A stretch of DNA of 64,000 bases from a virus. This document shows positions 2,215 to 55,315 of this stretch, piece after piece. The translations under genes were made by a program, and so were the position numbers. Below the pieces are notes generated by a model. That model was not told the DNA's origin, made no database searches, and saw only the letters and a list, made by a program, of their open reading frames with translations. The DNA lies in IMG/VR virus record IMGVR_UViG_3300017971_000008, positions 1 through 64,000 of that record, one strand, 5' to 3'. Position 1 is the first letter of the stretch, and every line of letters begins with the position of its first letter.

Positions 2215-3951
2215 ATGGACGAAGGATACACATTCACGCTCCAGGGTTACGACGTAGTTGTGAACGAGACCGAGAATTCCGAGGTTTTCCATGTTCAGAT
2301 TCATGAAGGTGGGGCGCCTGTCTATGAGACCGATGTCCCCATCACTTTGGAGGACGAGGAAATTATCCTTGATGAGGTAATCGATCACGCGGCCAAGGCT
2401 GCGATTGATATGTACGAGTCGGAGAAAGGTACCTTGGGACAAGGTGCTGAACCGCTAGAAATAGAGGCCAAAATGAAAAGAGGACAAGCGATAGCTTCCC
2501 CAGGATGCTACTGGATGGAGTCGTGCAACTACACCGAATGGCTCATGCAGCTCAAAGGCACCCCCTACGAGCAGCAGGCCATCGTTCTGCTTGAGGAACT
2601 TATCAACCTCCAGGCCCCAGGCGCGACCAACACCGAGCTGGATGCTTTGTATAAGCAGAAAAGCCAGGTGGAGCATGAGCTGGATCGGCTGAACCTGGAG
2701 AGACTCAAGACTGCCGATCCTCCCAAACAGATCGTTGTCATTGAGGCCAACCGTACCCGGCGTGTGAGCTTCTCCGGGTTAGACTGGGTCGAAGGTTTCC
2801 TGGATGCGTTCAAAGACCACAGGCTGGAGCCTCAGGCCATTCTCAAGGTCAAGGAACTGATCGACCTGGAAGCGGCCATCGACGTGGCCAGCGCCACCGA
2901 GAGTGGTACCTGGGACCAGCAGGACGAGGTTCGCCGGCAGATGGACGCACTGCTCATCGAGAAGACCAAGTCCGAGGTGGACCAGAAGCTCCCCCAGAGC
3001 GGCATCGAGGTGGCCCCTGAGATGGCCAACGACATCGCTGACCTGATGGAAGGCGTCTCGATGGACGCTCCCCTGGAGCCGATGGTGGCTCGTCGCCGGC
3101 AGGTTGCTTACGAGGAGTACTACCCCGGTGAACACGGGGAAGGTGCGACAAGCAACTCGATTCTGGATGCCATGGCCCGTGCCGTGTATGTGACCAGCTG
3201 GTCTAGTGAGTGGGAGTACCTGTGGGAAGACTATGAGGACGAGGTTATCGAAGAAGAAGCTGAAGAACTCGGAATCGAAGTTCCCAATTTCATGGGTGCT
3301 GAACTCATGTCGATTGCACCGCCCACTGAGAAAGAGGCTCATGACCTTGCCAAGAAAGTGTATGACGAAATCGAGCGCGATAACAATGTGAACCTCGAAG
3401 ACTTCATCCCGCCAGGAGAGGATGAGGACTTTGATCAGTTTGAGTTTGGTCACTATCTCATGATGGAGGTGCTGGGTTCTGGTGTTGCCTGGAGCGATGA
3501 CCACGAAGACCACGGGTTGAAGCTCCCGTGGGAGGAGGGGGTCCAAGTTGAGGGCCTGACTCCTTTGGTGAATGTCTTGTACGAGAAATATGGGGAGGGT
3601 CGCGAGGCTTCCAGAAAAGGCTGCCGCAGACCTGTTAGAAAGAGAGCCCAGGATGACAAGAAAGACCCTTTCGAGGTTGAGGAATTTGGTACGGAACTGG
3701 GGAAGGGTCACGGGGACCTGGACCCCGCGGAGGTTCCCGAAGCGACCCGAGTTCCTTTCGGCCCAGGCAACTACATAAAGCTCAAGAACGAGGTCAAGGT
3801 TCCGTTGTGGGGAGGAGCTTCTCGTACCATACCCAAAGGTACGAAAGGGTTTGTGGACTCTTTGTATGACGGCCACGGCGACCGTTTCTATATCAGAACT
3901 GAAGAAGGCGCTCTGTTCAGCACCGACCGAGATAATTTGGCAAAAGCTTAG
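2215..3951 (+). CDS. Acidic multi-module protein, second polyprotein-like gene
   Basis: 578 residues, starting 3 bases after the previous stop, so co-translated. No family recognised. Acidic modules are again separated by basic, Q-containing motifs: KMKRGQAIA (86-94), ARRRQVAYEEY (292-302) and VRKRAQDDK (474-482). The module after residue 480 is a compact 100-residue piece with a beta-rich end. Residues 135-260 look helical or coiled-coil (charged heptads around ALYKQKSQVEHELDRLNLE). Context and motif sharing suggest the same role as its upstream neighbour. A strong terminator follows at 3974. Confidence 0.75.
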   Translation: MDEGYTFTLQGYDVVVNETENSEVFHVQIHEGGAPVYETDVPITLEDEEIILDEVIDHAAKAAIDMYESEKGTLGQGAEPLEIEAKMKRGQAIASPGCYWMESCNYTEWLMQLKGTPYEQQAIVLLEELINLQAPGATNTELDALYKQKSQVEHELDRLNLERLKTADPPKQIVVIEANRTRRVSFSGLDWVEGFLDAFKDHRLEPQAILKVKELIDLEAAIDVASATESGTWDQQDEVRRQMDALLIEKTKSEVDQKLPQSGIEVAPEMANDIADLMEGVSMDAPLEPMVARRRQVAYEEYYPGEHGEGATSNSILDAMARAVYVTSWSSEWEYLWEDYEDEVIEEEAEELGIEVPNFMGAELMSIAPPTEKEAHDLAKKVYDEIERDNNVNLEDFIPPGEDEDFDQFEFGHYLMMEVLGSGVAWSDDHEDHGLKLPWEEGVQVEGLTPLVNVLYEKYGEGREASRKGCRRPVRKRAQDDKKDPFEVEEFGTELGKGHGDLDPAEVPEATRVPFGPGNYIKLKNEVKVPLWGGASRTIPKGTKGFVDSLYDGHGDRFYIRTEEGALFSTDRDNLAKA

Positions 3952-3973
3952 TTCCGCTTAGTTCCTCTCTCCC

Positions 3974-4006
3974 GAGGCCCCTGGTTCGCCTTTCGCCAGG
4001 GGCCTC
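3974..4006 (+). terminator. Strong stem-loop terminator
   Basis: Perfect 11-bp stem GAGGCCCCTGG / CCAGGGGCCTC with an 11-base loop, 22 bases after the stop of the gene ending at 3951, followed by AATTATTTG. It closes the operon of the two multi-module proteins. There is no long U tract, so its efficiency is uncertain. Confidence 0.75.
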
Positions 4007-4052
4007 AATTATTTGATTGACGATAACCTCCTCATATTTTAAGCTCTGATTC

Positions 4053-4147
4053 TCCATTCCGACAGAACTGGGTTGGCCTTCCTGGGCCGTTCAAACTTTT
4101 CCATTCGCTGGACAAAAACCGCACTCAGTTCTGTCGGTTCTTTTTTT
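4053..4147 (+). ncRNA. Putative small RNA with long closing stem and U-tract terminator
   Basis: A perfect 12-bp inverted repeat (CCGACAGAACTG at 4059-4070, CAGTTCTGTCGG at 4126-4137) encloses 55 bases and is followed by TTCTTTTTTT, a rho-independent terminator layout. A promoter-like TTGACG-N17-TAAGCT lies immediately upstream (about 4018-4046), placing the transcript start near 4053. No convincing reading frame lies inside. It could instead be only a second terminator; the upstream promoter makes a discrete roughly 90-base RNA plausible. Confidence 0.5.
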
Positions 4148-4192
4148 GACATTGACCTTCGCATATTGATAGCCTATTTTAAGGAGGTCAAT

Positions 4193-4366
4193 ATGAGACG
4201 TATAGATGAATCAATAGCAAGGGGCGCAGGCTGTGTGTACATCATGAGTGTTCCACTGCTTAAAGAACTCGCAAAGAGGTATGGTACAATGTCAGCTGCT
4301 GAAGTATTTGAGATGGAGAGGAGAAGACGTGAACAAAAAGTCGCAGAGAAAAAAGCGCAAGCGTAA
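4193..4366 (+). CDS. Small hypothetical protein (57 aa)
   Basis: ATG at 4193 follows AAGGAGG with ideal spacing; the frame is open further upstream but without a usable start. A promoter-like TTGACC-N17-TATTTT precedes it. The sequence is short and helical, ending in a strongly charged tail (EMERRRREQKVAEKKAQA), and terminates in KAQA, reminiscent of the A-Q motif discussed elsewhere. Function unknown. Confidence 0.6.
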   Translation: MRRIDESIARGAGCVYIMSVPLLKELAKRYGTMSAAEVFEMERRRREQKVAEKKAQA

Positions 4367-4460
4367 AGAGAAGCGGAGAGCCCAGGATGCTACAGTTCCC
4401 ATTAAGAAACCCAAGATACAGCCCCCACCTGTTCAGAAGGAACTTTCTGAAGATTTATAG
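4329..4460 (+). CDS. Very basic 43-aa protein with KRRAQD motif
   Basis: GTG start at 4329 preceded by GGAGAGGAG, overlapping the previous gene by 38 bases in another frame. The product is a lysine/arginine-rich N-terminus (KKRKRKEKRRAQD) followed by a proline-rich tail. KRRAQD matches the SRRHAQDD and RKRAQDD motifs of the two long proteins upstream, so this could be a minimal leader-plus-cargo protein. Start choice and coding status are moderately uncertain. Confidence 0.45.
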   Translation: MNKKSQRKKRKRKEKRRAQDATVPIKKPKIQPPPVQKELSEDL

Positions 4461-10561: not shown

Positions 10562-11215
10562 ATGGAATTATTCTCTGAAATATCGAAGATTGCAAGGAAA
10601 AGAGCCATGCGTAAAAAGTCCATGAAGGATTACGATATCTTCCTGGAGGTGGCGAAGAGGTACGCCCAGACCACAGATACCACAACGCTTGCCCCGGATG
10701 ACATTCAAGTAGGTCAATCTGTGTTCGATCCAAACGATGAGGAGTTCATCGTTTTGGAGTCGGAAGATGCGGCCACCACCAAGGTGCTGATGCCTGCCGA
10801 GCAGCTCAACACAGGAGGCCTCCCGGAGAGCGTCCAGACCGTGGATGACGTTGCTCTTGAGTCAGACTATACTCTACAGCCCAGTGGCGCCCAGACGGGT
10901 GTGACGGCCTTCCACAAGGTACTGCCCGAGTTCCGGGAGAAAAAGCGGGCGGGAGTTTTGAAGGAGTTTCAGAAGAAAGCCCAGGCGACTCCCCAGGACA
11001 TTATGTTGGAGAAGATCCAGGAGTTGCAGGAGGAGTTCCAGTATGCAGCCTACGCTCTTGTGGGTGCGTTGGCTGACTACTCAAACAACGGTGATCTCAA
11101 TAAGCTGGATTTGGAACTTTCCAAGTTGAGAGTGGAAGGCATCCCGGATGAGGGCTTGGGGGTATCGGACCTGCGGGATCTGGTCGATGATGTCATGAGG
11201 GCTGAGGAAGTTTAA
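10562..11215 (+). CDS. Multi-module small virion-type protein with two A-Q motifs
   Basis: Start chosen at 10562 (GAGGAGCCC upstream). The N-terminus MELFSEISKIARKRAMRKKS is a basic amphipathic helix. KRYAQTT (32-38) and FQKKAQAT (136-143) carry the same [K/R]-x-A-Q motif that ends the leaders of the following genes. The segments between are acidic, and residues 145-217 look all-helical. Interpreted as a leader plus two cargo modules. First gene of the 10.5-15.3 kb cluster. Confidence 0.65.
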   Translation: MELFSEISKIARKRAMRKKSMKDYDIFLEVAKRYAQTTDTTTLAPDDIQVGQSVFDPNDEEFIVLESEDAATTKVLMPAEQLNTGGLPESVQTVDDVALESDYTLQPSGAQTGVTAFHKVLPEFREKKRAGVLKEFQKKAQATPQDIMLEKIQELQEEFQYAAYALVGALADYSNNGDLNKLDLELSKLRVEGIPDEGLGVSDLRDLVDDVMRAEEV

Positions 11216-11269: not shown

Positions 11270-11539
11270 ATGAGGAATCGCAGAAACCCACGCTGCTCAA
11301 GCCCCGGAGAGAATCGGGCCGGTTCTAAGTTTAAGGCTAAGTTTAATTACAGGAGATCCCAGGACGTGGACGGGTTCAGGTTCGGTGAAGATGGCTACAT
11401 GGAAGTAATGGATGCCATCGTGGAGATGGTTGAGAACGGATACGGGGTCGTGGACATCATGCTCAACATCGGTGAGAGGTTTCCGCGGGAAATGGCAACA
11501 AAGGTGCTTGAGGAAGCACGAGCGCAGGGAATCTTATGA
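11270..11539 (+). CDS. Hypothetical protein (89 aa)
   Basis: ATG after TATGAGG. The basic N-terminus (MRNRRNPRCSSPGENRAGSKFKAKFNYRR) is followed by an acidic helical domain. Its stop overlaps the next start. Not recognised; it lacks the MKLKGL leader but has the same basic-then-acidic layout as its neighbours. Confidence 0.65.
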   Translation: MRNRRNPRCSSPGENRAGSKFKAKFNYRRSQDVDGFRFGEDGYMEVMDAIVEMVENGYGVVDIMLNIGERFPREMATKVLEEARAQGIL

Positions 11540-11814
11540 AACTCAAAGGCCTCACGGATAAGTCGGTAAAGAGGGTGGCCAAGGCTACCAAGACCCGAGA
11601 GGATATTTTGAGTATGGCTCAGTCGAATGCGGAAATGGCAATTGACCAGGCTTATGAACCAGATTTTGAGGATCTCCAGGATGCGATAGACTCTTACTAT
11701 GAGAATGCAGCAGACACGATGGCGGAATGGGGTTTTACCGTGTCAGACCGTGAATGGGATCTCATGTACGATGAATACTTTGCTACCGTAGAACGACTTC
11801 GGGGAGACCAATGA
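11536..11814 (+). CDS. Leader-bearing small acidic protein (MKLKGL class)
   Basis: 92 residues, start inside an ATGA overlap. The N-terminal leader MKLKGLTDKSVKRVAKATK is nearly identical to those of the genes at 11811-13526 and 46735-50411, while the remainder is unrelated and acidic. A possible cleavage context is LSMAQSNAE (residues 30-38). Paralogous leader on a different cargo. Confidence 0.7.
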   Translation: MKLKGLTDKSVKRVAKATKTREDILSMAQSNAEMAIDQAYEPDFEDLQDAIDSYYENAADTMAEWGFTVSDREWDLMYDEYFATVERLRGDQ

Positions 11815-12224
11815 AACTCAAAGGCCTCACGGATAAGTCTATCAGCCGTATTGCGGACATGTTCGAGGTACCTTATTCCAAGAGCTACAAGAACAAGATG
11901 GACGAGCTGGAGGCATACCAGCCAGCTGATGAGGAGCTGGTGGACCTGGCAGAGGTACTTTACGGTTGCATCGATGACGAGGATACCTGGGTACCTCAGG
12001 TGACGAATTCCAGGATACCGACCAGGAGTGATAACAATGTGGAGTCGGTGAGGTTCTACATGAATGTCGCCGCCGACGATATGGGCCGAGGTTTGGATTG
12101 GCTGGGTGCTTTGGCGAAACTGTGGGCAGTACATTCGGCCACCGGGTACACCCATGCCATAGATGAGCTGCACGGAAGGTGCTGTGTTCAGGAGGAAGAG
12201 GATGAGACTCAAGGGATTATCTGA
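11811..12224 (+). CDS. Leader-bearing small acidic protein (MKLKGL class)
   Basis: 137 residues. The leader MKLKGLTDKSISRIADMF is followed by an unrelated mixed alpha/beta cargo. The first 20 nucleotides are identical to those of the preceding gene, suggesting leader duplication. No obvious A-Q site follows the leader. The next start lies inside its 3' end. Confidence 0.68.
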   Translation: MKLKGLTDKSISRIADMFEVPYSKSYKNKMDELEAYQPADEELVDLAEVLYGCIDDEDTWVPQVTNSRIPTRSDNNVESVRFYMNVAADDMGRGLDWLGALAKLWAVHSATGYTHAIDELHGRCCVQEEEDETQGII

Positions 12225-12582
12225 TGAAGGTGTTAAGAGGGTGGCAGGTACCTTGCGAAAGACTGCGGACCTGGCTCCCAAGGACTTCATGACGGATATC
12301 GTGGTGAGTGATGACGGTTGGGGGTACTACCTGATTTACGAGAAGGCCGACGATTCCTTGTACGTTTTCAGAGATGACAGGGACGCCGAGGAGGATAAGA
12401 CTTTCAGTCTTGAGGTTGTCTGGGATGGGGTGGAACTCGAAGGTACCTTGGAGGACTGGGACGCTTTCAATGCGATTGATTGGGAAACCAAGAAAGGTCT
12501 CGCCGATGCCTTGGAGAAAGAGCTGAAGGATGTTGAGGAGGGGGAGCAGACCCGTAAGGAATATCTGAGAAGAGGTTGGTGA
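12202..12582 (+). CDS. Leader-bearing small acidic protein (MKLKGL class)
   Basis: Start set at 12202, where AGGAGGAAGAGG precedes the leader MRLKGLSDEGVKRVAGTLR; a further-upstream ATG at 12163 would overlap the previous gene unnecessarily. The cargo is an acidic 105-residue domain with a WGYYLIYEKAD beta region. 126 residues, function unknown. Confidence 0.68.
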   Translation: MRLKGLSDEGVKRVAGTLRKTADLAPKDFMTDIVVSDDGWGYYLIYEKADDSLYVFRDDRDAEEDKTFSLEVVWDGVELEGTLEDWDAFNAIDWETKKGLADALEKELKDVEEGEQTRKEYLRRGW

Positions 12583-12977
12583 TGAAACTTAAAGGATTAT
12601 CTAACAAAGGTGTGAAGCGGGTAGCTTCTGTCATTAAAGGATATGGCCAGCGCGATCCTCAGAATGCTGTGGGCATAAGCGCATTTGAGGTCTTCGGAGA
12701 CTCCGTTGATGCCTACCAAGAGTTTGCCTGGAACTATTTTGATAGAGGCCCGGAGGGCGGTATTGAGCTTCCGCAGACTTCTCTCGATAAAGAGATGATC
12801 ATGTATGCCATGCAGGAGCATGTTGACGAGACCACCCAGCCGGGAGGTCCTGGGAGAGCTTTGGGGACAGGTGAGTACCTTGAGCTGGAGGACGCTGGGT
12901 ACTACCTTGAAACTGTCATTGAGGAGCTTGAAATACTCCCCATGACCGACGAGGAGCTTTACGGGAGCCCGTATTGA
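12582..12977 (+). CDS. Leader-bearing small acidic protein (MKLKGL class)
   Basis: The TGATG overlap sets the start at 12582. The leader MKLKGLSNKGVKRVASVIKG continues into YGQRDPQ, then an acidic helical cargo. 131 residues. Stop and next start overlap again. Confidence 0.68.
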   Translation: MKLKGLSNKGVKRVASVIKGYGQRDPQNAVGISAFEVFGDSVDAYQEFAWNYFDRGPEGGIELPQTSLDKEMIMYAMQEHVDETTQPGGPGRALGTGEYLELEDAGYYLETVIEELEILPMTDEELYGSPY

Positions 12978-13210
12978 TGAGCCAGAAGGATAACATCATC
13001 GCTACCACTGAAGGGATACTGGACGCCTTGAGGGCACTCACAGGGCGTCTCTATGATGCTTTGGAGAGGTACCGGGAGGATGATGATGTGGAATCTTTGG
13101 GTGAGGAGATAGAGGACCAGGTGGACTATATGATACCGGATGTGGCCACGGTCATGAAAGACCTTGCTTTGGACATCAGTCTTGAGGCTGTTGAAACTTT
13201 GGAGGATTAG
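12977..13210 (+). CDS. Small acidic helical protein without leader
   Basis: 77 residues from the ATG at 12977 inside a TGATGA overlap. Predominantly helical and acidic (LYDALERYREDDDVESLGEEIEDQVDY). It lacks the basic leader, unlike the genes on either side, which argues that the leader is not simply a cluster-wide artefact. Confidence 0.65.
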   Translation: MSQKDNIIATTEGILDALRALTGRLYDALERYREDDDVESLGEEIEDQVDYMIPDVATVMKDLALDISLEAVETLED

Positions 13211-13214
13211 GGAA

Positions 13215-13529
13215 ATGCGTTTAAAAGGATTATCAGAAAAGGGTGTCCAGCAGGTTGCCAGGACGATTAAGGGACAGGATACCTATGAGTGGCAGTACGG
13301 TACTGAGATAGACCCCCTGGCCACCGCAGTACACAACGATTTGAATGATGCCGAGGCTTATGCCAAGGAGCTTGTCTCGGATGTTGACGCTATTCTGTAT
13401 TCAGCTACCTCACCCCATCAGGAAGTGAAGGACTGGGTACATGAAGTTCGTTGGGCCGCTGAAAAAGCACAGGCTCTCGTTAACCTTTTGGAGATGGTTG
13501 CTGATACATTAGAGGAGGGTAGTCAATGA
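13215..13529 (+). CDS. Leader-bearing small acidic protein (MKLKGL class)
   Basis: Start at 13215, where the leader MRLKGLSEKGVQQVARTIKG begins; the longer upstream frame is not needed. The leader ends ...TIKGQ|DTYEW, and TYEW also follows the A-Q motif at residue 516 of the long protein ending at 2211, suggesting related cargo or site context. 104 residues, helical cargo. Confidence 0.7.
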   Translation: MRLKGLSEKGVQQVARTIKGQDTYEWQYGTEIDPLATAVHNDLNDAEAYAKELVSDVDAILYSATSPHQEVKDWVHEVRWAAEKAQALVNLLEMVADTLEEGSQ

Positions 13530-14002
13530 GACTCAAAGGAATCACAGGACAGGGCATTCAACGGGTTGCCAGGACGATTAAGGCTCAGGGTGAAGGGCTT
13601 ACCATGTTTGACCTGGACACCTTCGCACAGGCCTATGTAGAAGCCATGCTGTGGTCCTCCTCCACCATGGAGGATGATGCAGAGATGTTCGGTGAGGAGT
13701 TTGCCGAGAACCTGGATGACTTGGTAGGGTTCATTGACATGTCTCCTGAGGCGGTAGCCCAGGTGAAAGAGGACTGTGATCAGTTCCAGGAGGAGAATGC
13801 GGAACTTCTCGATCAGGTGTCGGAGGAGTTCGGGGTTGGCGACGACCAACACGGCCATGATTTCTGGCTTACTAGAGCAGGTCATGGTGCTGGGTTCTGG
13901 GACCGCGGTTACGGTGACTTGGGGGAGAGGCTGTCGGACGCCGCCCGGAAGTTTGGGCATATCGATCCTTATATCGGTGATGACAAGAAAGTCTATTTTT
14001 GA
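13526..14002 (+). CDS. Leader-bearing small acidic protein (MKLKGL class)
   Basis: 158 residues. The leader MRLKGITGQGIQRVARTIKA is followed by Q|GEGLTMFDLD. The nucleotide stretch coding GVQQVARTIKG/GIQRVARTIKA is very similar to that of the preceding gene (GGTTGCCAGGACGATTAAGG in both), consistent with recent leader duplication. The cargo contains HGHDFWLTRAGHGAGFWDRGYGD, which resembles a short DUF seen in phage proteins. Confidence 0.7.
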   Translation: MRLKGITGQGIQRVARTIKAQGEGLTMFDLDTFAQAYVEAMLWSSSTMEDDAEMFGEEFAENLDDLVGFIDMSPEAVAQVKEDCDQFQEENAELLDQVSEEFGVGDDQHGHDFWLTRAGHGAGFWDRGYGDLGERLSDAARKFGHIDPYIGDDKKVYF

Positions 14003-14370: not shown

Positions 14371-14667
14371 ATGAGACACGAGGACTTCATAAAAGGTGTG
14401 AACAAGAACGCAGCTAGGGCAGTTCGTAGACGTGGTGATGCCTTGAACACTTCATACGAGGCTCAGGTGGATGTACTGAAGGGCTTTCTTGCGGAGAGGC
14501 TAGATGGTATTCAACGTGAGTTGAGTGAAGGTCCCGCAGCTGAACGTCTACCGGAAGTTTTGACAGACATGTCGGAGTTAGCAGAGTCCCTGAAGTCTCA
14601 ACTGAGCGTCTTGGATATGGAATACGAAACCCATCGAGAGATGTCCGATGCCGGGTTCACAGGATAG
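14371..14667 (+). CDS. Leader-bearing small protein (MRHEDFIKGV class)
   Basis: 98 residues after AAAGGAGG. The leader MRHEDFIKGVNKNAARAVRR is shared almost exactly by the next two genes and, as MKHSDFIKNVNQ, by the gene at 46356. The cargo is helical and acidic, unlike its neighbours' cargo. The EDFIK-x-V start recalls the T4 internal-protein capsid-targeting start (YQEFI), by analogy only. Confidence 0.7.
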   Translation: MRHEDFIKGVNKNAARAVRRRGDALNTSYEAQVDVLKGFLAERLDGIQRELSEGPAAERLPEVLTDMSELAESLKSQLSVLDMEYETHREMSDAGFTG

Positions 14668-14676
14668 GAGTAACCA

Positions 14677-15027
14677 ATGAGACACGAGGATTTCATAAAA
14701 GGTGTGAACAAGAACGCTGCCAAGGCCATCAGGGCTGATGTGGTTCAGCCGAAGGTTACCCAGGCCCGTATCATCTATGACGACAATTCAGACAACCCTG
14801 GGTGGTTCGTCCGGTACACTTTGTCGGATGGTCAGATACTTGATACGTCTTACGGGATGCCTGATGATCCTGAGTACCCCGAGAACGATTTGTACGATGC
14901 CGCCGACGATGCTTTATTCTATGAGGGCTATTCCCATGATGACGTAATCTATGAGATTGTAGGCGGCAATCCTGGTGAAGGTGATCCCGACCCAGAGGGT
15001 GTGTTCCCGGACGACATCTTAGACTGA
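14677..15027 (+). CDS. Leader-bearing small protein (MRHEDFIKGV class)
   Basis: 116 residues. The leader MRHEDFIKGVNKNAAKAIR differs in only a few codons from the preceding gene, then diverges into a beta-rich acidic cargo. VVQPKVTQARII (residues 21-32) holds candidate Q sites. Confidence 0.7.
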   Translation: MRHEDFIKGVNKNAAKAIRADVVQPKVTQARIIYDDNSDNPGWFVRYTLSDGQILDTSYGMPDDPEYPENDLYDAADDALFYEGYSHDDVIYEIVGGNPGEGDPDPEGVFPDDILD

Positions 15028-15046: not shown

Positions 15047-15322
15047 ATGAGACATGAAGACTTCATCAAAGGTGTGAAGAAGAACGCTGTGAAGGCCAAG
15101 GTTGTGGTGGCCCAGGATGCAGAGAGTGGGCCTATCTACGACCACGCTTACACGGTGGCCTTCTCTGTCAAGACCCCACACGAAGCCCAGGACGTTACGG
15201 CTGAGGAGCTCCTGGATGGTTTGGCTGACCGGCTCAAGGATCTGGAAGCAACTGGCGAGGTTTTCGAGGCTGTCGGGATGCCCTACGACACTGCAAAAAT
15301 CGAGGATGGCTTCATCGAGTGA
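15047..15322 (+). CDS. Leader-bearing small protein (MRHEDFIKGV class)
   Basis: 91 residues after AAGGAGAG. The leader MRHEDFIKGVKKNAVKAKV is followed by VVAQ|DAESGPIYDHAY, a clear A-Q-D site. Acidic alpha/beta cargo. Last gene of the first leader cluster. Confidence 0.7.
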   Translation: MRHEDFIKGVKKNAVKAKVVVAQDAESGPIYDHAYTVAFSVKTPHEAQDVTAEELLDGLADRLKDLEATGEVFEAVGMPYDTAKIEDGFIE

Positions 15323-44940: not shown

Positions 44941-45033
44941 TTTTACCGTAATCATTAAGGAAAATACCCTGTAAATATAAGGAGGCTGGCTTGGCACGGC
45001 ATGTGCAACCTATCCCAGGCAGGAGGTGGCGAC

Positions 45034-45354
45034 ATGCCCAAAGTCAGAGTCAATATCCATGAAATCTTCTCCTCACTTTGCAGCTCCAGGGTCAGTGAGG
45101 TGATCGGCGGCGATGACCTCAAGAAGGTCCAGGAACACCTCGGGCGCCATGACCTGATCAGGTGGGGCCAGTACCCCGAACTCATGATGGTCCACGACAC
45201 GGACCTGAAGGAGACCTACCTCTATTTTGTGGATGTCTCCTCGGGCGACATCGTGTCGGACCTGGTTAGGTTCGACTCCCGCGGCGAGGCCAAGGTGGCA
45301 CCGGCCAAGGTCACCGAGGAATTTCTTAGGCCCCTGCTTAATGAACATGACTAA
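45034..45354 (+). CDS. Hypothetical protein (106 aa)
   Basis: Start set at 45034 (CAGGAGGTGGCGAC upstream); the frame extends 11 codons further without a ribosome binding site. Alpha/beta; MPKVRVNIHEIFSSLCSSRVSEVIGG... No family recognised. Confidence 0.65.
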   Translation: MPKVRVNIHEIFSSLCSSRVSEVIGGDDLKKVQEHLGRHDLIRWGQYPELMMVHDTDLKETYLYFVDVSSGDIVSDLVRFDSRGEAKVAPAKVTEEFLRPLLNEHD

Positions 45355-45460
45355 ATTCATATATCTACAGTCTAATTTAAATTCCCTAATGTGTGTACTT
45401 TATACTGATCGTCAGGAGAACGTACTTCTTCATTGATTACAATGGAGTTGGAAAGTAGAT

Positions 45461-45480
45461 TTTCTTGGTATATTAGAGAC
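45461..45480 (+). promoter_or_regulatory. TTCTTGGTATATT promoter-like element directly before a start codon
   Basis: TTTCTTGGTATATTAGAGAC ends exactly at the ATG of 45481, so a transcript from it would be leaderless. Confidence 0.5.
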
Positions 45481-45915
45481 ATGCACATGAGAAAACTTCA
45501 CAGGCTGGACTTTCTTAAAGACGAGTTTCTGAGTGACCTACGACGGCTCAAGGGCCAGTCATTCTGGGACAAGCCCGATACCGACATCTCGATACTCATC
45601 GCCATCGGAAGTTTCGACTTCGATGTCCAGAGCTTCTCGGCGGTGCATCCCCAGGAATTTGAACAGTGGAAGAAGGACGTGGCCGTACGGCTGCGTGAGG
45701 ACTTCATGGAGTTTGACCTTGACCTGGAGTTTACCTACACCGCGGCAGACCACATCATTGAGTACAAGTCGTGGGTGGATGACGAGCTCTCCACCGAGGA
45801 CCTGATAAAGCTACAGGATGAGATACTCAAGGCCATCCCGGAGATAGCCGACGAGTGTTACGAGGACATACAAGAAAACGGGATCTTCGGACCCGATGGA
45901 CTACTAGGAGAATGA
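45481..45915 (+). CDS. Hypothetical protein (144 aa)
   Basis: The frame is open from 45433, but a promoter-like element at 45461-45480 favours starting at 45481 (or 45487). An alternative start at 45442 with GGAG 17 bases upstream cannot be excluded. Acidic helical protein (LHRLDFLKDEFLSDLRRLKGQSFW). One base separates it from the next gene. Confidence 0.6.
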   Translation: MHMRKLHRLDFLKDEFLSDLRRLKGQSFWDKPDTDISILIAIGSFDFDVQSFSAVHPQEFEQWKKDVAVRLREDFMEFDLDLEFTYTAADHIIEYKSWVDDELSTEDLIKLQDEILKAIPEIADECYEDIQENGIFGPDGLLGE

Positions 45916-45916
45916 G

Positions 45917-46351
45917 ATGACAAAGTTCAACGCAAGTATTCAGGATGAGGGTCTGAAGCGAATCGCAGGGCAGATGGGCGGCTCCTCCCGGCAGGCGCAG
46001 GAAGAATCTGGCGATTACAGATCCTATTGGGATAATGTTGAAGAGACTGCTCAGTGGGTAAAAGACAACTACAAGGATTATGGCGGTAACGTACACGATG
46101 CTCTTAATGAGTCAGTGGAAAGTGATCGTTGGGTGTTCATTACCTGGAAAGCCCATAAGACCATGGAACACACCGCCAATGAGGATGCTCTCTGGGATCA
46201 GATGGGAAGCATGGAAGCGGACAGCTGGAGCCAAGTAGTAACCCAGGCGGCGTTCTTTGCTCTTTCTCAGGATATTACTGATAAGATGTTTGAAATGGGC
46301 TGGGATGGCGGTGAATCCTGGGGTGAAGATGACGAAGACGAGGAGTACTAG
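45917..46351 (+). CDS. Leader-bearing small acidic protein (variant leader)
   Basis: 144 residues after AGGAGAATGAG. The N-terminus MTKFNASIQDEGLKRIAGQM contains DEGLKRIAGQ, the same pattern as D-x-G-V/I-KRIA in the MKLKGL class. SSRQAQEES (residues 24-32) gives an A-Q-E site. Acidic helical cargo. First gene of the second leader cluster. Confidence 0.68.
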   Translation: MTKFNASIQDEGLKRIAGQMGGSSRQAQEESGDYRSYWDNVEETAQWVKDNYKDYGGNVHDALNESVESDRWVFITWKAHKTMEHTANEDALWDQMGSMEADSWSQVVTQAAFFALSQDITDKMFEMGWDGGESWGEDDEDEEY

Positions 46352-46355
46352 ACCA

Positions 46356-46730
46356 ATGAAACACTCAGACTTCATAAAAAATGTGAACCAGCCTCAACGC
46401 ACCGCCCAGGAGAAGGGCTACCAGGGCTGGACTAACTATGAGACTTGGGCTCTCGCGCTGTGGCAGGACAATGACCAAGGTCTTTACCAAATGATTCAAG
46501 AGATGGTGGCTGAAGCAGCACAAACCGATCCTGGCAGAACTGGTGAGGGTGTTCGTGGTGATGACACTATCGTCCTGGCTGACATGATGAAGGACTTCTG
46601 GGAAGAGATGTATCCCGAGAACTTGGATGGCCCCTGGTCAGACCTGCTTCGGGCGGCATGGGATGAGATAGATTGGTACGATATCGCTGAAAGTGAACTG
46701 GCCGAATACAGGCTTCAGAACGAGGAGTAG
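46356..46730 (+). CDS. Leader-bearing small protein (MRHEDFIKGV class) with NYETWAL cargo
   Basis: 124 residues from the ATG at 46356. The leader MKHSDFIKNVNQPQR is followed by TAQ|EKG. The cargo begins YQGWTNYETWALALWQDND, a motif shared with a widespread family of small phage/plasmid proteins of unknown function that start directly at that motif. This shows the leader has been added in front of a known stand-alone domain. Confidence 0.75.
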   Translation: MKHSDFIKNVNQPQRTAQEKGYQGWTNYETWALALWQDNDQGLYQMIQEMVAEAAQTDPGRTGEGVRGDDTIVLADMMKDFWEEMYPENLDGPWSDLLRAAWDEIDWYDIAESELAEYRLQNEE

Positions 46731-46734
46731 ACCG

Positions 46735-47556
46735 ATGAAACTTCAAGGAATTTTAAATCAAGGCATGCAGAGGATCGCCAGGGCCGTGATTGCTCAAGAG
46801 GAACCGATGGGACCGCCCATGGATGAACCTGAAGGCACCACAATGCCCGAGGGTGGTAAGCCCAAGGTGCTGGGGGTAGAGAAGCAGGCTTGGTCCTCTG
46901 GCGGATACAGCGGAGAGGTCACAGATATCGATGTGTTTTCTTCGGCAGCAGCGGAGCAAATGATGGCTCCTTTTGAGGAGGTTCAGGTGTCCGAGGTTTT
47001 ACAGTTTCTTCAAGATGAGTATGAGGTCTCGCCCGAGGAGCTTTTAGAAGAATCTGGCAAAAGTCACCCTGACCAAGGCTTCATCAGAATGAACGCTCCC
47101 GAGACTGTGGAAAACATGCATCTGGGAGATCTTCGGTTAGCTGTCAGGGGTGCTAGACTGGGTTTCAGTGGGAATACCTACAATACGAGCTGGTGGGGTC
47201 CTACCTTCGACTACACAATGCTGCCTGAGGGAGACTCGGATGAGCCTTATGCGGGAGGTATCCTTCTTATCCGAACCCACGAAAGTGGTGATGTACGAGG
47301 AGGTTCTTGGGGTTCTTATAGCGATGACAAAGCATATCGTATTGGCTCCTATGCTGAAGAGGTTCCTTGGTACGATTTGAGGCTGACTGTCATTCTGAAT
47401 ACGGATAGGGGTGAGGTTCTTTTAGACGCTGAAGACGACGAGGCCTACCACTTCATTGTTGTGAAGGACGAGACAGGGACTTTCGGGACAGATGATTATG
47501 TAGATTACGACAATCTGATGGAGGCCTTCGATTGGGAAGGTCAGCATCTCTGGTAA
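46735..47556 (+). CDS. Leader-bearing protein (MKLKGL class), 273 aa
   Basis: Start at 46735. The leader MKLQGILNQGMQRIARAVIA is followed by Q|EEPMGPPMDEPEG. A low-complexity Pro/Met/Glu linker leads to a larger alpha/beta cargo (about 50-270). The largest single-leader member. Followed by a 7-bp hairpin at 47561. Confidence 0.7.
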   Translation: MKLQGILNQGMQRIARAVIAQEEPMGPPMDEPEGTTMPEGGKPKVLGVEKQAWSSGGYSGEVTDIDVFSSAAAEQMMAPFEEVQVSEVLQFLQDEYEVSPEELLEESGKSHPDQGFIRMNAPETVENMHLGDLRLAVRGARLGFSGNTYNTSWWGPTFDYTMLPEGDSDEPYAGGILLIRTHESGDVRGGSWGSYSDDKAYRIGSYAEEVPWYDLRLTVILNTDRGEVLLDAEDDEAYHFIVVKDETGTFGTDDYVDYDNLMEAFDWEGQHLW

Positions 47557-48955: not shown

Positions 48956-49189
48956 ATGAAGCTCCGAGGCATCTCTGACGGAGCCATAAAGAGGATTGCC
49001 GGGACTATGTCAAAAGAGTCCGAAGCATATCCCGGCAATCTTGGCTTCGTAGAGATGTTGGAGTTCTTCAAGATAGCCTCTCCCGAGCAGGAGGCTGAGA
49101 TGGACCGCATGCTCGACGCGGGTGACTACGAAGGAGTCTGGGATCTCCTCAGGGAGGTTACGGGCCATGACCTGGAGGAGTTGAAATGA
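48956..49189 (+). CDS. Leader-bearing small acidic protein (MKLKGL class)
   Basis: 77 residues. The leader MKLRGISDGAIKRIAGTMSK is followed by an acidic helical cargo. No Shine-Dalgarno is obvious; three bases after the previous stop, so coupled. No A-Q after the leader (ends SKESEAY). Confidence 0.65.
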   Translation: MKLRGISDGAIKRIAGTMSKESEAYPGNLGFVEMLEFFKIASPEQEAEMDRMLDAGDYEGVWDLLREVTGHDLEELK

Positions 49190-49428
49190 AACTTGGAGGA
49201 CTCTCATCTAAGAGTGTTGGGCGTATTGCTAAAGCTATTAAGGGAGAGGCTGGTTCGCCTTCCAGTGACCGCATCCTTGAGGTGGCCGGTAAGTTACAGG
49301 AAGTTGTCAGTGGCCTGGAGTTCATTGCTAAAGATAGTACTTTCGCGGATGTTCTCACAGAGAAAGAACTCTCTAAAGCGGAAGAGGCCGCTGAGAGTTT
49401 GATGTCTCTCATTTACGAGACACCTTAA
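49186..49428 (+). CDS. Leader-bearing small acidic protein (MKLKGL class)
   Basis: 80 residues, start overlapping the previous stop, GGAGGAGTTGAA upstream. The leader MKLGGLSSKSVGRIAKAIKG ends GEAGSPSS. Helical cargo. Confidence 0.66.
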   Translation: MKLGGLSSKSVGRIAKAIKGEAGSPSSDRILEVAGKLQEVVSGLEFIAKDSTFADVLTEKELSKAEEAAESLMSLIYETP

Positions 49429-49475: not shown

Positions 49476-49874
49476 ATGAGACTTCATGGGTTACAGGATA
49501 ACGCAGTCAGAAGGATTGCTAGATCTGTGGCCCGACAGGCATCCAATGTGGAAGGTCTGGAAGCTCCGATTACTCTTGAGTACCAGGTATGGCCGGGAGA
49601 TCCCCCAAAGCCGATTGTCATTCAGAATCAGGAAGCCTTAGATACTTTGGTTGAGGCAGCTCTTTGGTTAGGTGAGGAGTGGGAGCGTCGGACAGTAGCG
49701 GTTGAAGATGGTACCTGCACTGACATTTATTGGGTAGGCGACGAACAGCGTGTTGGCTGGACAGACGTACACTCAAGGTTCCCCCGTCTGCTGGAATTGC
49801 TAGGTGTCGATGCCCGACTCGCGCTCGAAGGAATGAAGAATAAACTGGGCATTGAACTCAGGGAGATACAATGA
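49476..49874 (+). CDS. Leader-bearing small acidic protein (MKLKGL class)
   Basis: 132 residues. The leader MRLHGLQDNAVRRIARSVAR is followed by Q|ASNVEG. The cargo is alpha/beta with Trp-rich WLGEEWERRTVAVEDG...DIYWVG. Confidence 0.68.
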   Translation: MRLHGLQDNAVRRIARSVARQASNVEGLEAPITLEYQVWPGDPPKPIVIQNQEALDTLVEAALWLGEEWERRTVAVEDGTCTDIYWVGDEQRVGWTDVHSRFPRLLELLGVDARLALEGMKNKLGIELREIQ

Positions 49875-50029
49875 GCCCACAAGAACACCCTTACGACAAC
49901 CCAGGATACCTGACAAACATCTTCGAGGAGAAGCGCAAGCACCTGACCCCCGAGGAACGCCAGGACGATGACGAAGCCTTTGCCGCCTTTGCGGATTGGA
50001 TGCTGATGGAGGAAGACGATGAAACTTAA
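49871..50029 (+). CDS. Very small acidic protein (52 aa)
   Basis: Starts in an ATGA overlap after GGGAGATACA and ends inside the next gene (11-base overlap). Acidic; HLTPEERQDDDEAFAAFADWMLMEEDDET. No leader. Coding is supported by the tight overlaps on both sides. Confidence 0.6.
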   Translation: MSPQEHPYDNPGYLTNIFEEKRKHLTPEERQDDDEAFAAFADWMLMEEDDET

Positions 50030-50399
50030 AGGACTGTCGGACAGGAGTGTGGAGAGGATTGCCAAATCGGTTACGGGTCAGGAAGATGACTTTGAAGATA
50101 CTGAAGATACTGATGAGTCTTTTGCGGAAATCAATCCTGCATTTCCAGAATATGTCCAAAATCTTCAAAGATCGTATAATAGGGTAAGCCCTGAAGATTA
50201 TGCCCAGCATAAGAACCTATTAAGTAGACTCGTTCCTCTAAATAAGGACATTGATCGTTTTGCTCGTGATTACGAATGGCTTTTTTCACCAGAAGAATTT
50301 AGCGTGTTGCAGGATGCTAGAGTCCTTTTGGAGAACCTTTCTTACCCTCTTTCTCTTTTAACAGTAGAAGAAGATGATAGGCCGTTAGTATTTTTTTAG
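50019..50399 (+). CDS. Leader-bearing small acidic protein (MKLKGL class)
   Basis: 126 residues. The leader MKLKGLSDRSVERIAKSVTG is followed by Q|EDDFEDTEDTDESF, a very acidic stretch. GGAGGAAGACG precedes the start. Helical cargo. Confidence 0.7.
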   Translation: MKLKGLSDRSVERIAKSVTGQEDDFEDTEDTDESFAEINPAFPEYVQNLQRSYNRVSPEDYAQHKNLLSRLVPLNKDIDRFARDYEWLFSPEEFSVLQDARVLLENLSYPLSLLTVEEDDRPLVFF

Positions 50400-50410
50400 A
50401 GAGAAAAACA

Positions 50411-50680
50411 ATGAGACTCCAAGGTCTTCCAAATAAGTCCATACTAAAGATTGCAAAAGTCATACAAGCTCAGGATCAAATACAACGTGTGGCTCCTGGG
50501 TATTATTCTTTCACAAATAATTATGGCACAACAGGTGAGATATTTCGTCTTGATGAGGGTGTATGGCGTGGATGGTGGGTAGTTCAAATTGATAGATATA
50601 ATGTAAGTGATCCTGTCAGAACTCTGTCAGAAGCTAAAGAAATAGCTTACGAATGGGAAGCCGATACGGGGTTCTATTGA
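50411..50680 (+). CDS. Leader-bearing small protein (MKLKGL class)
   Basis: 89 residues. The leader MRLQGLPNKSILKIAKVIQA is followed by Q|DQIQRVAPG. The cargo is beta-rich (YYSFTNNYGTTGEIFRLDEGVWRGWWVVQI). AT-rich codons compared with the cluster. Confidence 0.68.
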   Translation: MRLQGLPNKSILKIAKVIQAQDQIQRVAPGYYSFTNNYGTTGEIFRLDEGVWRGWWVVQIDRYNVSDPVRTLSEAKEIAYEWEADTGFY

Positions 50681-53164: not shown

Positions 53165-55315
53165 GTGAACGAGTGGCAGCTGGGCCGTTCTGCTGTGGTA
53201 GACGAGGAACTCACCTATCTTGCCACACCTGCACCGAACATCATTGAGTGGGTAACTGGAAAGAATTTCTGGAACGTCCCGAGTACGTTTAAACATTGGG
53301 GCCAGTACCAGCATCTCCGGGACATGTTCAACCTGAGATGCAGGATCTGCAATTCGCAGAAGCCCGAGGACATCTCCTGCTGGGGGAAGTCCCGAGAGTA
53401 CCTTGAGTCGGAGACTCTTCTGACCTGGGATATGGACTACCAGGATTTTGTGTGTCCCTCGTGCAGGACCACGATGAACGAGTTCATCAACGATGGTCTG
53501 CTAATTCCCTACAACGATCTGATCCTCATCATCGGCATGAGGGCGGGTAAGTCCTACACGGGTGCCCACATCGGTGGGTACGTTGAACACTTTGCCATCT
53601 CTCAGGGAGTCAAGGCCAGGGGCGACCTCCAGCGGCTGCTCGGGGTGGAGAAGTCCGAGTGGCTGGAAGCGACCTTTGCCGCGTCCACCGCCACCCAGGC
53701 CCAGGACACCATCTATGCGAAGTACCGTGAGATGCGGAGGAACTCTCCTTGGATTCAGAGGTATGTTTCCTGGGTGAAGGAGCAGGAGAGAAAGCAACCG
53801 GCCAGTCGGGAGATGTGGAAGTACAAGCAGCTCGATGACAAGATACTGGATGGGTATCTTCAGGTTCGGTTCAACCGGATTGCATCGGACTCGGCAGGTG
53901 TTGCCGGTAAGACTCGAATCTTTGCCAGCATTGATGAGTGGGCGCGTCTGGTGTCCACAGAGAGTTCCAGGTCTGCTCAGGAGCTGTGGCGTGTGCTGAA
54001 CCAGAGTCTGAAGACGGTTCGGTCATATACCATGCAGCACGGTCTTATCACGTTACCTTTCACCTGGATGGCTAACGTTACCTCCCCTATCAGCCAGGAC
54101 GATCCAGCGGTGCTTCATTACAGGAGGTTCGAGGAGGGCGAACTCCAACGGACATATGGACATTGGTGTCCTACCTGGGAGTACAATCCAGGCATGCCTC
54201 GGGAGGCTTTTGACGACGAGTATGCCAAGGACCCTCTCGGGGCGGAACGGGATTTCGGCGCCAACCCGCCGAATGCAGCCATGCCCCTGATCGACGACCC
54301 TATCCGGTTCTGGGGGTGCGTAGACTTCGAGGCCAAGCCGATTGCTGAGTTCCAGGAGGATTACCGAAGCGATCCCACGGGGAAGATGTACATTTCTTCC
54401 AGTGTGGCCGATTGCGCCCTGGTTCCTCGGATACCCAGGTATATCTTCATGGACGCTGGGCTGAACTTTGACGCCTTCGGTATTGCCTGCGCCCATCCCG
54501 AGTGGGTGCCCACCAATGTGCTGTACGAGGAGGAAGAGGACGCAGAACCCATTGCACGAGGCCGTATTGAGCCCTCTGGTGTCCGCAGACACACCACTGT
54601 AGAGGAAAGGTTCGGTATCCATCCAAGCGGCCCACAGGCCATGGGGCTGGCTCCTGTGAGAGGCCCCTATCAGAAACCTGGGAGCATCGCGTCCAACGCG
54701 CATCCTGGTGAGATGCTGGTGACCGTTCTGGACTTCGTTATGAGACTTGTCCCGACGCATGATCGGGACATCTGGTTTCAGTCCTTGGTGGACATTGTAT
54801 CGGTACTCAAACAGAGATTGAACGTAGCCCTGGTATGCGCGGACCACTGGAGCAGCGACAGTACCTTGCAGCAGATTCGTGACCTCAACATCATGAGCCA
54901 CAAAGTTTCGTTGAAGGCCGAACATTTTGTGATGTTTGTCCGGTCTGCCTACAATGGCAGGGTAAGGATGCTTCCACCGGCAGAGAGTGACAAGCTGGCC
55001 CTGGACTCCAAAGGAAACCTGCTCCTGGGATCTCAGCAACCGGATATGTCGGGGCCTGGGGTGGCTCTTGTAGAGCTTCTCAAGCTCAACAGGTCACCGG
55101 ATCTGAAGAAGGTGTTCAACCCCAATAAAGGCCGGGTAAGGGGCGTGGACTCGGACGATCTGGCCTGGTGTGTGGTCGGGGCGCATCACATGGTTCAGGA
55201 CTCGGTGATAGATCGTCAGGCCGATAGTTTGAAGCGCAGGGAGAGCAGGAAGCGCCAGGTTGTCAGCCAGGGGGCTTTTCGTGGTGTGGTTCTACCTGGA
55301 AGGGGGCGTCGGTAA
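53165..55315 (+). CDS. terL: Terminase large subunit
   Basis: 716 residues from the GTG at 53165; no ATG is available, and the frame stays open back to 53096. Two CxxC pairs (CRIC 59-62, CPSC 97-100) precede the ATPase. Walker A-like GMRAGKSY is at 124-131; Walker B with catalytic Glu in IFASIDEWARL (D257, E258). The C-terminal RNase H-like nuclease shows acidic clusters in YIFMDAGLNFDAFG, VALVCADHWSSDS and GVDSDDLAWCVVGAHH. Motor and nuclease for packaging the genome into proheads. The zinc-like insertion before Walker A is unusual. Confidence 0.93.
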   Translation: MNEWQLGRSAVVDEELTYLATPAPNIIEWVTGKNFWNVPSTFKHWGQYQHLRDMFNLRCRICNSQKPEDISCWGKSREYLESETLLTWDMDYQDFVCPSCRTTMNEFINDGLLIPYNDLILIIGMRAGKSYTGAHIGGYVEHFAISQGVKARGDLQRLLGVEKSEWLEATFAASTATQAQDTIYAKYREMRRNSPWIQRYVSWVKEQERKQPASREMWKYKQLDDKILDGYLQVRFNRIASDSAGVAGKTRIFASIDEWARLVSTESSRSAQELWRVLNQSLKTVRSYTMQHGLITLPFTWMANVTSPISQDDPAVLHYRRFEEGELQRTYGHWCPTWEYNPGMPREAFDDEYAKDPLGAERDFGANPPNAAMPLIDDPIRFWGCVDFEAKPIAEFQEDYRSDPTGKMYISSSVADCALVPRIPRYIFMDAGLNFDAFGIACAHPEWVPTNVLYEEEEDAEPIARGRIEPSGVRRHTTVEERFGIHPSGPQAMGLAPVRGPYQKPGSIASNAHPGEMLVTVLDFVMRLVPTHDRDIWFQSLVDIVSVLKQRLNVALVCADHWSSDSTLQQIRDLNIMSHKVSLKAEHFVMFVRSAYNGRVRMLPPAESDKLALDSKGNLLLGSQQPDMSGPGVALVELLKLNRSPDLKKVFNPNKGRVRGVDSDDLAWCVVGAHHMVQDSVIDRQADSLKRRESRKRQVVSQGAFRGVVLPGRGRR

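Follow-up and report, generated by a model that had tools for sequence, protein, structure and literature searches.

Why would a phage give a series of unrelated small proteins the same short N-terminal sequence? This question is raised by a stretch of 64,000 nucleotides (hereafter, the window), corresponding to bases 1-64000 of the 157,936-base virus record IMGVR_UViG_3300017971_000008, in which many small genes, clustered at 11.5-14 kb and again further downstream, start with almost the same basic peptide, here named leader 1. On the full contig, 194 genes were called, 191 of them on the plus strand, and the phage is most likely a myovirus because head genes, including a sheath gene, are present on the contig. 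From sequence comparisons, we propose, with a probability of about two in three, that leader 1 is a capsid-targeting sequence tagging many proteins that would be packaged in the head and injected, with cleavage at an A/G-Q site in most of them.

One leader on many acidic proteins

The consensus of leader 1 is M-K/R-x-x-G-I/L-S/T-D-x-G-hydrophobic-x-R-I/V-A, with a basic core of ~15 residues, GI(S/T)DxG-hydrophobic-(K/R)R(I/V)A. The original prediction placed it on six consecutive genes starting at 11536, 11811, 12202, 12582, 13215 and 13526; all six leaders are in frame, although the genes are not strictly consecutive, a leaderless one standing among them. Its recurrence at 46735, 48956, 49186, 49476, 50019 and 50411 was borne out, again in frame in every case. 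Besides these 12 copies, de novo clustering of N-termini retrieved 45917, 80833, 81555 and 87019, and a search by pattern and position-specific scoring matrix (PSSM) retrieved 87566, bringing the total in this phage to 17. Among the additional copies, 45917, a variant, lies inside the window and the other four outside. The copies of the window, with lengths in amino acids (aa) and a slash marking the putative junction, are as follows.

11536..11814, plus strand: leader-1 protein, 92 aa, MKLKGLTDKSVKRVA KATKTREDILSMAQ; the canonical Q is absent, first AQ at +14
11811..12224, plus strand: leader-1 protein, 137 aa, MKLKGLTDKSISRIA; without [A/G]Q site
12202..12582, plus strand: leader-1 protein, 126 aa, MRLKGLSDEGVKRVA; without [A/G]Q site
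12582..12977, plus strand: leader-1 protein, 131 aa, MKLKGLSNKGVKRVA SVIKGYGQ/RDP; GQ at +8
12977-13210: leaderless gene, 77 aa, interrupting the first leader-1 cluster
13215..13529, plus strand: leader-1 protein, 104 aa, MRLKGLSEKGVQQVA RTIKGQ/DTY
13526..14002, plus strand: leader-1 protein, 158 aa, MRLKGITGQGIQRVA RTIKAQ/GEG; cargo of the PHROG 1915 family
45917..46351, plus strand: leader-1 variant protein, 144 aa, MTKFNASIQDEGLKRIAGQ...RQAQ/EES; missed by the original prediction
46735..47556, plus strand: leader-1 protein, 273 aa, MKLQGILNQGMQRIA RAVIAQ/EEP
48956..49189, plus strand: leader-1 protein, 77 aa, MKLRGISDGAIKRIA; without Q site
49186..49428, plus strand: leader-1 protein, 80 aa, MKLGGLSSKSVGRIA KAIKGE; without Q site
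49476..49874, plus strand: leader-1 protein, 132 aa, MRLHGLQDNAVRRIA RSVARQ/AS; R-Q
50019..50399, plus strand: leader-1 protein, 126 aa, MKLKGLSDRSVERIA KSVTGQ/EDD
50411..50680, plus strand: leader-1 protein, 89 aa, MRLQGLPNKSILKIA KVIQAQ/DQI

Altogether, ten contigs, including that of the window phage, yielded 67 distinct leader-1 proteins. Relative to the core Ala (position 0), Gly is found at -10 in 63/67 and Arg at -2 in 64/67, while all 67 leaders have I/L/V at -9, a small residue at -5, a hydrophobic one at -4 and I/V/L at -1. The helical hydrophobic moment of the core peaks at 100 degrees (0.578 vs 0.310 for shuffled sequences), which fits an amphipathic helix. The leader is basic in 90% of cases and the cargoes, described from the outset as unrelated and acidic, are indeed net negative without exception (67/67), with a mean charge of -0.151 per residue vs -0.040 in other genes of similar size. 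At a score of at least 11, the PSSM, derived from the leaders themselves, recognized 55 starts in the fetched loci, some of which overlap and which include the window phage itself, vs none among 54,187 shuffled N-termini. Moreover, an all-against-all clustering of N-termini, independent of the PSSM, recovers leader 1 in contigs G000, G002, G001, G015, G009, G004, G005, G013 and G012.

Such uniformity might reflect a recent duplication or recombination of gene 5'-ends which spread a translation-initiation region, the encoded peptide being functionless. A few leaders do share DNA words, the genes at 11536 and 11811 being identical over their first 23 bases, and codon identity among the leaders of the window genome is slightly above expectation, with the same codon in 341 of 891 amino-acid-identical pairs vs 267 expected from codon usage. 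As this excess is so limited, there has been only slight recent copying, and leader conservation is mainly at the peptide level. Indeed, the same peptide pattern is encoded, mostly by different codons, across genomes of 36-60% GC, and the strict constraints at the G, R, A and hydrophobic positions conserve residues and not bases. This already disfavoured scenario is thus hardly credible.

A glutamine at the leader-cargo junction

Within 12 residues past the core, [A/G]Q occurs in 40/67 leaders, whereas ~5 would be expected on the basis of other genes, 4.5 on that of cargo windows and 13 after shuffling of the same residues. The slightly broader motif [A/G/S]-Q follows the leader in 43/67, usually 1-8 residues past the core; among these 43, Q stands at +6 from the core Ala in 19 and at +1 in 13, and the A/G-Q motif is located where the basic leader switches to the acidic cargo. 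The prediction that the leader usually ends in [A/G]-Q is therefore better stated for the relatives as a whole, since it holds for 7/12 of the leaders first listed, of which only five have Q in the canonical position, six residues past the core Ala.

Regarding the nature of this site, [A/G/S]xE shows no enrichment (21/67 vs 19.8 in cargo windows). The residue following Q is E in 12/43 and otherwise A, S, G, M, D or others; because it varies, Q and not E is the constant residue, and the possibility that the leader ends in a disguised A-X-E site could be ruled out on the same variation at P1'. Leader 1 conforms neither to the T4-type (I/L)-x-Glu removal site, its enriched residue being Gln, nor to the phiKZ-like propeptide end A-X-E (P3-P1). 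The idea of a Q-type instead of a Glu-type site thus stands as far as the motif is concerned, but 24/67 leaders are devoid of it and cleavage after Q is only suggested by these sequences.

Targeting without cleavage is an alternative that we consider unlikely, though not negligible: the leader would dock its cargo to the scaffold or the inner capsid and stay on it, A/G-Q serving as a helix-capping or docking element. The third of leaders without motif would suit such a role, as would the orthologs of 80833, which retain the leader core and mostly not the Q. Nevertheless, the enrichment of the motif at two preferred distances, its position at the basic-to-acidic switch, its recurrence behind a different leader (leader 2, see below) and the presence of a gp21-like protease all argue in favour of cleavage.

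Head genes and prohead protease

The head and tail module starts at the end of the window and continues beyond it.

53165..55315, plus strand: terminase large subunit, start of the head/tail module and only head gene inside the window
contig 69925-71736: portal, beyond the window
contig 73318-74223: head maturation protease, beyond the window, between the portal and major capsid protein (MCP) genes
contig 74228-76168: separate, acidic scaffold, identified by sequence and alignment with relatives
contig 76979-78280: MCP, beyond the window
contig 89240-91681: sheath, identified by sequence and alignment with relatives

Simple gene calling sets the starts of the protease and the MCP too late, upstream starts (MSFRKTAQVQFLG..., MGNPYTRVSRKSRR...) being backed by relatives. 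The MCP shares 77% identity with its counterpart in G002, a phage of 36% GC, and 57% with the one in Virus Rctr197k. It is also homologous to the MCP of PaBG, a phage in which the MCP sheds ~20% of its mass and other virion proteins are processed during maturation (PMC7412058); proteolytic maturation is therefore known in the wider family.

A prohead protease was expected elsewhere in the genome and was indeed found, the gene at 73318-74223 matching the PHROG head maturation protease (6.6e-30). Its alignment with 40 relatives reveals invariant residues, including H111 and S183-M-G, in line with the catalytic His and Ser expected of a gp21-like enzyme. Its AlphaFold model has a predicted local distance difference test (pLDDT) score of 89, and the best three PDB matches, although weak, are all T4 gp21 chains (5jbl). 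A hmmsearch with the protease profile gave no match to T4 gp21, so that fold comparison is the sole link between the two enzymes. The model is consistent, through this weak fold match, with a gp21-like prohead protease in the window phage.

Restriction to one capsid clade

A scan with an MCP profile yielded 80 MCP loci, and further whole contigs were read in addition. Nine related metagenomic phages, with a GC content of 36-60%, encode proteins bearing leader 1, and all leader loci group in a single clade of the MCP tree, made up of large, uncultivated myoviruses (SH-aLRT, an approximate likelihood-ratio branch support, 99). In this clade the protease has a gene of its own, and the leader is missing from every locus where protease and scaffold are fused. 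Leader 1 is absent from the relatives Rctr197k and G003, and the PSSM and pattern test did not find it on the whole 163-kb contig G014, which lies inside the clade. Exact degenerate DNA patterns, which miss diverged copies, matched only members of the leader clade in IMG/VR, and one exact leader pattern, with the same limit, had no match in 84,980 prokaryote genomes (GTDB). In 8/10 leader-bearing contigs (four being fragments found via their MCP), a leader gene is located 2.5-4 kb downstream of the MCP.

Of note, many relatives encode protease and scaffold as one protein of 800-1450 aa, others by two genes, and after midpoint rooting each arrangement is found on either side of the MCP tree.

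One may ask whether the leader has nothing to do with the head and rather serves as an intracellular address, for instance by directing import into a phage replication compartment, by anchoring proteins to a membrane through its amphipathic helix or by contacting a host protein. Basic amphipathic helices are common membrane- and partner-binding tags, and several clusters are far from the head genes. However, the leader is limited to one capsid clade and is often encoded just downstream of the MCP, one of its cargoes, an ArdA homolog, suits delivery with DNA, and an address of this kind leaves the A/G-Q ending unexplained; we grant it a small probability.

Cargoes and their likely roles

Most cargoes have no match in Pfam or PHROG, and these databases provided no functional annotation for the window phage's own cargoes. 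By homology only, a cargo of G004 (44953-45720) is related to the ArdA antirestriction protein (PF07275, 5.8e-34; PHROG 2059, 8.9e-41). ArdA antirestriction proteins are of the kind that phages deliver alongside their DNA. Other cargoes match HAD_SAK_1 (a HAD enzyme), DUF5662, DUF7249 and, weakly, a ParB-like domain, and one cargo member, not traced, has a weak match (2.7e-4) to a McrBC inhibitor family. Cargoes of G015 and G009, suspected by eye to be ADP-ribosyltransferases (YHVT...EGL), had at best a weak match to Tpt1 (E 0.023) in Pfam and PHROGs and are tentative candidates for this activity.

This repertoire bears on another explanation, in which the tagged proteins would belong to the assembly core, like T4 gp67 and gp68, as acidic co-scaffolds which help to size the prohead and are then cut and leave it instead of being injected. 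In its favour are the acidity of all cargoes, shared by T4 gp67 and gp22, and the location of the genes near those of the MCP and the scaffold in most contigs. By contrast, a cargo repertoire that is unrelated, that varies between phages and that includes ArdA, a HAD enzyme and domains standing alone in other phages is difficult to reconcile with a core function, whose probability we judge to be smaller still than that of an intracellular address.

Detachable and interchangeable leaders

The 13526 cargo belongs to a protein family that is widespread in phages (PHROG 1915) and is leaderless outside the clade; in Klebsiella phage KP2025 and Serratia phage ChuuTotoro, it starts within a few residues of the junction. 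Its G002 ortholog is located between the MCP and sheath genes, and cargoes therefore shift between clusters. In addition, a second leader, M(R/K)HxDFIKGV... (leader 2, MRHEDFIKGV), is present on six proteins of the window phage (14371, 14677, 15047, 46356, 80100 and 83566) and ends in A/G-Q in several of them. Those of the window are listed below, together with a possible third leader.

14371..14667, plus strand: leader-2 protein, 98 aa, MRHEDFIKGVNKNAARAVRRRG
14677..15027, plus strand: leader-2 protein, 116 aa, MRHEDFIKGVNKNAAKAIRAD
15047..15322, plus strand: leader-2 protein, 91 aa, MRHEDFIKGVKKNAVKAKVVVAQ/DAE
46356..46730, plus strand: leader-2 protein, 124 aa, MKHSDFIKNVNQPQRTAQ/EKGYQGW; cargo DUF7249/PHROG 871
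10562..11215, plus strand: possible third leader, MKDYDIFLEVAKRYAQ/TTD from codon ~21, the G002 ortholog starting MSDLSVFEELATRYAQ; weak, two sequences only

Which leader precedes the DUF7249 cargo depends on the phage: it is leader 2 at 46356 of the window phage (...RTAQ/EKGYQGWTNYETW) and leader 1 in G005 (...KQVKAQ/EEGYQGWKNYETW), the join being A-Q-E in both. As two leaders meet the same cargo at this point, and as the 13526 cargo starts near its junction elsewhere, leader 1 is a detachable and mobile N-terminal module.

A DNA pattern for leader 2 had a single match, to a large ATPase-like protein with an HSDF start, which was judged to be due to chance. In G002, ~19 small proteins (e.g., 3749-4427, 155079-157768 and 168165-168998, minus strand) have another common N-terminus, MK(T/I/A)xGK(P/S)V, unrelated in sequence to leader 1 and often continuing in low-complexity repeats such as SVWDSVWDSVRNSV.

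A putative packaging route and its precedents

In the route that we favour, the tag would attach, during prohead assembly, either to the scaffold or core or to the inner face of the shell and thereby carry its cargo into the prohead. The gp21-like protease would then cut after A/G-Q in most cargoes, freeing them inside the head, while cargoes without the motif would remain tagged. Ejected with the DNA, similarly to T4 IPI-III and Alt and to the P1 Dar proteins, the cargoes might immediately counter restriction or serve as other takeover proteins in the newly infected cell. The original interpretation of the leader as a capsid-targeting or propeptide system gains from its modular nature, its occurrence in one capsid clade with a separate protease, its proximity to the MCP and the ArdA cargo; the propeptide part is the less secure, cleavage being only suggested.

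Several points weigh against this route. That the tagged proteins are packaged and present in virions is what we infer from sequence. As [A/G/S]Q is lacking in 24/67 leaders, among them 80833 and its conserved orthologs close to the MCP, cleavage cannot apply to all of them. The gp21 fold match is weak (E 0.1-0.2, probability 0.5-0.6, template modelling score ~0.5 on target), and the specificity of the protease is unreadable from its sequence. The clusters at 11.5-14 kb and 46-50.7 kb are distant from the head module, as are, from the MCP, the leader genes of G012, G013 and, bar one copy, G015. The T4 internal proteins (IPs) are slightly basic, whereas leader-1 cargoes are acidic. Finally, the sole conserved [A/G]Q of the MCP (VVGQ/EL) is invariant in leaderless relatives too, and the MCP of phage G, devoid of the N-terminal extension, has A-Q at the aligned position; VVGQ/EL is probably structural and was dropped as proof of a Q-type maturation site.

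Precedents exist in T4 and P1 for N-terminal tags of at most 30 residues which package a cargo (PMC5694885, PMC9024508, PMC12373910). In T4, an N-terminal signal packages the internal proteins, and Ip1-3 inhibit type IV restriction enzymes (PMC12373910). Like the leader-1 set, IPI, IPII, IPIII and Alt, whose capsid-targeting sequence is cut by gp21, have a short common N-terminal leader on unrelated small proteins with variable cargoes, and both systems combine antirestriction cargo, a gp21-like protease and genes in more than one cluster. The T4 leader is nevertheless unrelated in sequence, with ipI/II/III scoring -2.3 to 0.9 on the leader PSSM vs 15-22 for members, and leader 1 thus has no sequence similarity to the T4 capsid-targeting sequence; leader 2 bears a loose resemblance to M-K-x-x-x-E-F-I of T4. 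Furthermore, the T4 site is after Glu and the putative leader-1 site after Gln, and three IPs in T4 compare with 17 leader-1 and six leader-2 proteins in the window phage.

In P1, DarB has a packaging signal in its first 30 residues that directs a reporter into the head (PMC9024508). The Dar proteins thus share with the leader proteins an N-terminal packaging signal on injected antirestriction proteins, but the signal was shown on one large protein and is not a repeated leader, and the P1 MCP is cut after Glu120 (PMC9024508). None of the PHROG and Pfam matches was named a Dar protein, no comparison aimed at Dar having been made. In phiKZ and SPN3US, head proteins are likewise processed by the prohead protease and ejected, and gp53 and gp54 share 15 identical N-terminal residues; SPN3US gp245 cuts after A-X-E (PMC10052503). 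Several of their propeptides, however, exceed 100 residues and are cut after Glu (PMC5694885, PMC10052503), vs ~21 residues and Gln for leader 1. Relative to T4, P1 and phiKZ, the leader-1 system stands out by the number of tagged proteins, the clade-wide conservation, the two interchangeable leaders and the putative Gln site. No account of leader 1 or of a Gln-type prohead site was found in the open literature searched, most subscription journals being outside its coverage.

A broader proposal, which we put forward tentatively and at somewhat less than even odds, is a modular tagging code in which at least two interchangeable A/G-Q leaders would address up to ~two dozen effectors to each head, with a protease shifted from Glu to Gln. 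Phage proteins entering the host with DNA are usually learnt one protein at a time; if the proposal is true, the tag would predict the injected arsenal of a phage from sequence. Confirmation would provide a catalogue of candidate antirestriction and takeover proteins, most of no known function, add a packaging signal with which foreign proteins could be loaded into heads, and argue that a prohead protease can cut after Gln.

Fused formats of the cargo domains

Large multidomain proteins (648-2097 aa) of these and related phages contain some of the cargo domains as well. This format, plausibly an alternative mode of delivery, is reminiscent of polyvalent proteins (Iyer et al., 2017, PMC5512222); leader-tagged cargoes differ in keeping domains as separate small proteins, each of them tagged. 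Large proteins of 1557-2097 aa at contig 148921-153594 of the window phage, 62053-68346 of G003 and 146011-152130 of Rctr197k share short segments with cargoes; that of the window phage had no match in Pfam, and all are possibly polyvalent-type injected proteins. Leader-tagged genes may also be fusing into larger proteins. In the leaderless G014, a 300-aa protein (9551) consists of two cargo domains behind a leader-like PLGADAIQRIATEAGE, and in G015 a 428-aa protein (166183-167469) has an internal GNGVRRIAEAL ahead of a ParB-like domain.

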